Assembly (NCBI GenBank): GCA_029265355.1
Contig: JAJUJL010000005.1
Coordinates: forward strand, 104,339-168,338
From: Chloroflexota bacterium
GTDB taxonomy: Bacteria > Chloroflexota > Anaerolineae > Anaerolineales > UBA4823
Length of the DNA: 64,000 bases
Direction of reading: 5' to 3'
The notes beneath the pieces were generated by a model that saw only the letters and a program-made list of their open reading frames with translations, had not been told where the DNA came from and did no database searches. Positions 26,548 through 27,228 of the stretch are shown here, in pieces; position 1 is the stretch's first letter, and each line of letters starts with the position of its first letter. Position numbers and translations under genes: made by a program.

Positions 26548-27228
26548 ATGAGCGAAAAACTGCTCAACGACGATATCGTTCAACAACTCAAAGACGTCTT
26601 CCAACAACTGCAAAATCCGGTAGAAGTGCTGTTTTTTGGGAGCAAGAAGGATTGCGAATATTGCGACGATACCCGGCAACTGGCCGAAGAAGTGGTCGCC
26701 ACATCGGATAAGCTGCACATGCAGGTTTACGATATCGACGAGCACGCCGAGATTGCCCGCCAATACCATGTGGATAAAGTTCCCGGCCTGGTTCTGGCTG
26801 CCCGTGACGGCGACCGCATCATCGACTACGGCGTGCGTTTTGCAGGCATTCCTTCGGGGCATGAATTCAGCTCGCTGGTGCACGACCTGGTGCTAGTTTC
26901 TGGTCGCGACTCGGGCTTGAGCCCACAAACGCGCAGCTTTCTGGCCGATCTGAAAGAACCGGTGCTGCTGCAAGTCTTCGTAACTCCTACCTGACCTTAC
27001 TGCCCGCGAGCCGTGGTGCTCGCTCACCAAATGGCCCTGGAGAGCCCGATGGTTCAGGCCGAGATGGTGGAAGCCATGGAGTTCCAGGAGCTTTCCTATC
27101 GCCACCATGTCAGCGGCGTGCCCCAGACCACGATCAATGACGGCGCTGCGCATGTGGTTGGCGCTGTGCCAGAAGGCAATCTACTGGCAGAAATTATGAA
27201 AGTGGTATCCAAAAAGAAATCTAAATAA
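26548..27228 (+). CDS. candidate selenoprotein: two-thioredoxin-fold protein disulfide oxidoreductase with in-frame TGA (26992-26994) as Sec in UPYC
   Basis: MSEKLLNDDIVQQLKDVF..FFGSKKDCEYCDDTRQL..LQVFVTPT[TGA]PYCPRAVVLAHQMALESPMVQAEMVEAMEFQELSYRHHVSGVPQTTIND..KKKSK*; both halves in one frame; RBS AGAAGGAG. Confidence 0.72.
27006..27023 (+). promoter_or_regulatory. candidate bacterial SECIS hairpin GCGAGC-CGTGGT-GCTCGC
   Basis: Perfect 6-bp stem, 6-nt loop with G at loop position 2 then T; stem begins 11 nt after the TGA. Confidence 0.65.

Follow-up and report, generated by a model that had tools for sequence, protein, structure and literature searches.

Gene content of the locus

The gene under study occupies positions 26548-27228 on the forward strand of a 64,000-nucleotide stretch of Chloroflexota DNA, the whole of which was analysed and is referred to here as the window. 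Under the standard genetic code its reading frame stops at a TGA ending at position 26994, and only a single domain of 148 amino acids is encoded. When this TGA (26992-26994) is read as selenocysteine (Sec, U), the frame yields a protein of 226 amino acids with two thioredoxin-fold domains and Sec at residue 149. The start codon, ATG at 26548, is preceded by the sequence AAGGAG about 9 nt upstream. In a profile search the product scores 277 bits with TIGR02187 (PDO_seleno_TRX), for which the cut-off is 185, and the protein disulfide oxidoreductase (PDO) of P. furiosus (1a8l) aligns over both thioredoxin folds (E = 3.6e-41). The N-terminal active-site motif, CEYC (residues 36-39, positions 26653-26664), is built of ordinary cysteines and aligns with CQYC of 1a8l; the motif of the second domain, UPYC (residues 149-152), coincides exactly with CPYC of 1a8l and has the Sec codon at its first position. 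The closest relatives by sequence are metagenome-assembled genomes of Anaerolineales and other Chloroflexota. Among relatives with two TGAs, none has a second Sec at the first active site, the extra TGAs being located upstream of the start or where the frame ends. TIGR02187, or 'homolog of AhpF N-terminal domain', has already been recorded as a bacterial selenoprotein family with a UxxC motif, and the gene at 26548-27228 belongs to this described family.

The same genome encodes tRNA-Sec with anticodon UCA, SelA, SelD, and SelB including its C-terminal part. In at least four more of its genes a Sec position is occupied by an in-frame TGA: those for SelD (L018), with the hairpin AGCGC GGAA GCGCT and its loop at +17; FdhA (L160), with the hairpin GTGGCC GGTCT GGCCAC and its loop at +18; a peroxiredoxin with a TxxU motif (TPIU; L171); and a peroxiredoxin-like protein with a UxxC motif (UPFC; L176). 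The loop positions in FdhA and SelD indicate that the position of the element is common to these genes, whereas its sequence is not. A match to SelA was found in every TGA-bearing relative of a 61-genome set, some of these matches being partial; as most relatives with cysteine at the site also have SelA, its presence was dropped as a means of telling Sec from Cys forms.

The PDO gene lies within a redox cluster at 25377-29368, in which all genes located below are on the forward strand. Upstream are an ECF sigma factor (25377-25994; Sigma70_r2 and r4), a zf-HC2 protein with the motif HxxxCxxC (HLASCENC), which is probably an anti-sigma factor (25991-26242; PF13490), and a zinc-ribbon-like protein of 69 amino acids with two CxxC pairs (26291-26500), for which no Pfam match was found; each of the three accompanies the PDO gene in 26 of the 42 loci fetched from relatives. 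Downstream are a YruB-type glutaredoxin (27245-27502; TIGR02196, 93.1 bits, cut-off 88.6), a TlpA/AhpC-TSA-like thioredoxin (27929-28513; PF00578), with a TlpA-like protein in 14 of the 42 loci, and an OsmC-family protein (28515-28991; PF02566), which is the most constant neighbour (33 of 42). The sigma factor, zinc finger, ribbon and OsmC genes thus stay with the PDO gene in 26-33 of the 42 relatives, and the cluster is conserved in Anaerolineae. It also includes NifX-like and rhodanese genes. The glutaredoxin was ruled out as a second selenoprotein, since it has CSYC here and cysteine in five relatives.

The hairpin downstream of the TGA

The sequence-only reading had placed a hairpin at 27006-27023, starting 11 nt after the TGA and with its loop 17 nt after it, and both the coordinates and the spacing are exact. 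An 11-nt spacer (26995-27005) separates the TGA from the 5' strand of the stem, GCGAGC (27006-27011), which is followed by the apical loop CGTGGT (27012-27017) and the 3' strand GCTCGC (27018-27023); the stem has six perfect base pairs and the loop six nucleotides. The isolated hairpin has a folding energy of -9.1 kcal/mol, and in the segment 26992-27030 it is the minimum-energy fold (-10.5 kcal/mol). The published model of the bacterial SECIS (bSECIS) element specifies a loop of 3-9 nt, an upper stem of 4-16 bp, a G within the first two loop positions, a distance of 16-37 nt from the Sec-UGA to the loop, and a minimum free energy of -7.5 kcal/mol or lower (PMC13188914). The hairpin agrees with this model on every count: loop size, stem length, the 17-nt distance, the loop G and energy.

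Folding of the segment 26980-27050, which had been put forward as a check, did not favour the hairpin. The minimum-energy structure of this 71-nt segment has a different pairing, the segment as a whole does not exceed shuffled sequences in stability (z = -0.39), and the stem probability is 0.21; thus folding alone lends the claim no support. The probability of the stem depends on the segment chosen: it is at least 0.95 in segments that start at or after 26980 and end by 27030, and 0.01-0.5, varying with the ends, in most longer segments, where a structure other than the stem has the lowest energy. When the stretch up to +10 or +11 downstream of the TGA is kept from pairing, in imitation of ribosome occupancy, the probability is 0.6-0.7 for 3' ends at 27045-27050.

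To assess the background rate of such hairpins, we took every TGA trinucleotide of the window, 1881 over the two strands. A model-compliant hairpin of -7.5 kcal/mol or lower accompanies 7.0% of them, and one at least as strong as that at 27006-27023 accompanies 3.7%. Taken by itself, the hairpin is only mildly improbable and constitutes modest evidence. With the gene's own peptide held fixed and codons drawn according to usage in the window, a stem with all six pairs in the same register has a chance of 0.8%, or 0.15% if only Watson-Crick pairs are counted. The G in the second loop position, followed by U, had also been taken as support for Sec decoding. Both bases are indeed present (G27013-U27014); however, they are part of a valine codon which is GUN in all 40 TGA homologues and in 87 of 88 Cys homologues. 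Because this codon is nearly invariant in the Cys forms too, the loop G-U carries no weight, and we dropped it as evidence for Sec. Given the alternative minimum-energy fold and the valine-fixed loop, the two best arguments that could be drawn from the single sequence weigh little.

Homologues with TGA and with cysteine codons

Two collections provided 129 distinct homologous sites, of which 40 have TGA at codon 149 and 89 have a cysteine codon (57 TGC and 32 TGT). We found that all six pairs of the stem, in the same register, can form in 26 of the 40 TGA homologues compared with three of 88 Cys homologues (P = 5.5e-14 by Fisher's exact test). When the count is widened to any model hairpin of -5 or lower in energy whose loop lies at +17, the numbers are 32 of 40 and one of 88. 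Outside the main register, several TGA forms have a different hairpin at an equal distance, for example CCAGGC AGTTC GCCTGG or CAGGGC GGTC GTCCTG, and in four TGA homologues this position lacks a strong hairpin. The TGA homologues L128, L131, L133 and L135 are without a hairpin at +17 and could fold into GGUCA-GGU-UGRCC-like stems whose loop would lie at about +22; their SECIS element has possibly shifted downstream inside the same gene. In L027, L096 and L113, a TAG or TAA was flagged inside the matched stretch.

The pairing partners themselves vary in the TGA forms. In a set of 28 TGA sequences selected for the main register, the pair 27008-27021 is G-C in 21, A-U in four and C-G in two. Paired cells make up 98.8% in this register-selected set and 84.2% over all 40 TGA forms, and the covariation score of all 40 exceeds that of 500 of 500 shuffles, although the covariation comes mainly from one pair and three of the six pairs are invariant among the 28. 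By comparison, 40 Cys forms pair at 64.2%, which is not above the level of shuffles, and show no compensatory changes. A comparison of covariance between TGA and Cys relatives had been proposed on the basis of the sequence, and its outcome is that compensatory changes occur in the TGA forms only.

Changes between Sec and Cys can be followed on a tree of 104 proteins: the state switches 18-20 times across bootstraps, and no fewer than 11 of the switches fall on branches with support. For 11 independent pairs with different codons, the presence of the stem matches the codon in about 8.3 (mean), and there is no pair in which it runs against the codon (median P = 0.008); a quicker tree gives nine pairs (P = 0.016). 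Counts, compensatory changes and tree pairs all indicate that selection maintains the stem where the codon is TGA and is relaxed where it is a cysteine codon, which places the stem among bSECIS elements. In the Cys forms L094 (GCGAGC CGTGGC GCTGGC) and L159 (GCGAGC CGTGTT GTTGGC), one arm of the stem is left. Together with a third Cys form, L148, they keep the 5' arm GCGAGCCGT with its infrequent arginine codon CGA and have lost the full 3' arm; these one-arm forms are probable remnants of a lost SECIS element, and decay of the SECIS following a change from Sec to Cys is known in other families (PMC1794560). As the identical stem occurs in deep branches, we favour an ancient Sec form that was lost repeatedly; repeated gain and transfer of the Sec form between lineages are possible. 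No description of repeated Sec/Cys exchange in PDO of Chloroflexota was found in the open-licence literature.

These comparisons bear on the explanation that the hairpin is a by-product of the codons for the peptide PRAVVLA and has no function as RNA, the TGA being read or not for other reasons. The conserved amino acids do fix half of the stem positions, the loop G-U is accounted for by the valine codon, and some model hairpin accompanies the above 7.0% of TGAs in the window. However, sampling from the gene's own peptide gives the complete stem in so few draws (0.8%), and synonymous-codon sampling across homologues leads to an expectation of 0.5 stems for each of the TGA and Cys sets, where 26 and three are observed, even though the Cys forms encode the same peptide. 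The infrequent arginine codon CGA is used in 19 of 29 arginine-bearing TGA forms but in only six of 59 Cys forms. Codon sampling and the Cys homologues together rule out codon constraint, which would account for about 0.5 of the 26 stems, as the origin of the stem, so that the case named beforehand as a refutation, a hairpin equally conserved in TGC relatives, did not materialize; we regard the by-product explanation as very improbable.

It is still harder to believe that the TGA is a nonsense mutation, the plain stop of a 148-residue first-domain protein, or a sign of a decaying gene. The standard reading does terminate there; however, the 77 residues beyond the TGA are conserved at the family level, 40 distinct homologues share a TGA at this codon, where it invariably takes the place of this catalytic cysteine, and the genome has the complete Sec machinery. 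A different proposal accepts a working SECIS but with inefficient or selenium-dependent insertion, such that the truncated one-domain protein of 148 residues is a regular second product with a role of its own. The competition of alternative folds with the hairpin is consistent with this, as is the completeness of the first domain, which has its own CEYC; on the other hand, we found no sign of selection for the short product, and the Cys homologues make the long form only. We consider such a second product rather unlikely.

Probable Sec decoding and comparison with known systems

The comparison of TGA and Cys homologues, with the tree-controlled pairs, leads us to identify 27006-27023 as the bacterial SECIS element of a selenoprotein gene, with a probability of about 95%. 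The same comparison and the full Sec machinery support the earlier interpretation of the TGA as decoded Sec rather than a simple mutation. When UGA 26992-26994 is in the ribosomal A site, the hairpin 11 nt further on would bind SelB with Sec-tRNA-Sec and would thereby direct the insertion of Sec at residue 149. The predicted product is a PDO whose two domains carry CEYC and UPYC, respectively, and in which Sec would act as the attacking nucleophile. In known PDOs, NADPH and thioredoxin reductase supply the electrons, peroxiredoxins are regenerated, and the C-terminal site is essential for thiol transfer (PMC7465337). The predicted Sec of the protein described here sits in this C-terminal site, and the protein would probably take electrons from a thioredoxin-reductase-type enzyme and hand them on to peroxiredoxins and other disulfide substrates.

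The conserved neighbourhood suggests a further, tentative reading, which we think has a small chance of being correct: the sigma factor, the HxxxCxxC protein, the CxxC ribbon, PDO and OsmC may form a SigR-RsrA-like thiol-stress circuit in which PDO reduces the anti-sigma factor and thereby completes a feedback loop. If so, Sec lineages would have selenium-dependent feedback, and the frequent exchange of Sec and Cys in the PDO would retune the redox set point of the circuit.

The status of 26548-27228 as a selenoprotein gene is settled, and gene callers would cut it short at the TGA. The PDO family, for which related Anaerolineae genomes show no fewer than 11 supported Sec/Cys switches, is a good natural experiment: the stem is found mostly in Sec forms and is nearly absent from Cys forms, so that the origin and decay of a SECIS element can be studied within a fixed protein. 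The family is equally suited to asking what is gained by Sec over Cys.

The protein resembles archaeal PDO (P. furiosus, 1a8l) in its two thioredoxin folds and in the CxxC-type site that each of them has; unlike 1a8l, which is from a thermophile, it has Sec in place of Cys. With the selenoproteins described as TIGR02187 or 'homolog of AhpF N-terminal domain (Grx-like)' it shares the profile family, the UxxC motif and bacterial decoding, and it differs from the examples found in the literature, which were from Carboxydothermus, Symbiobacterium and Asgard archaea, only in lineage. Like the bSECIS consensus, for example that of formate dehydrogenase genes, the hairpin lies within the coding region straight after the UGA and combines a 6-bp stem, a 6-nt loop with a G among its first two positions and then U, a 17-nt spacing and an energy below the -7.5 kcal/mol limit. 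It departs from that consensus in two respects: its loop G belongs to a codon that the protein sequence dictates, and is thus not independent evidence, and its primary sequence is peculiar to the PDO gene family.
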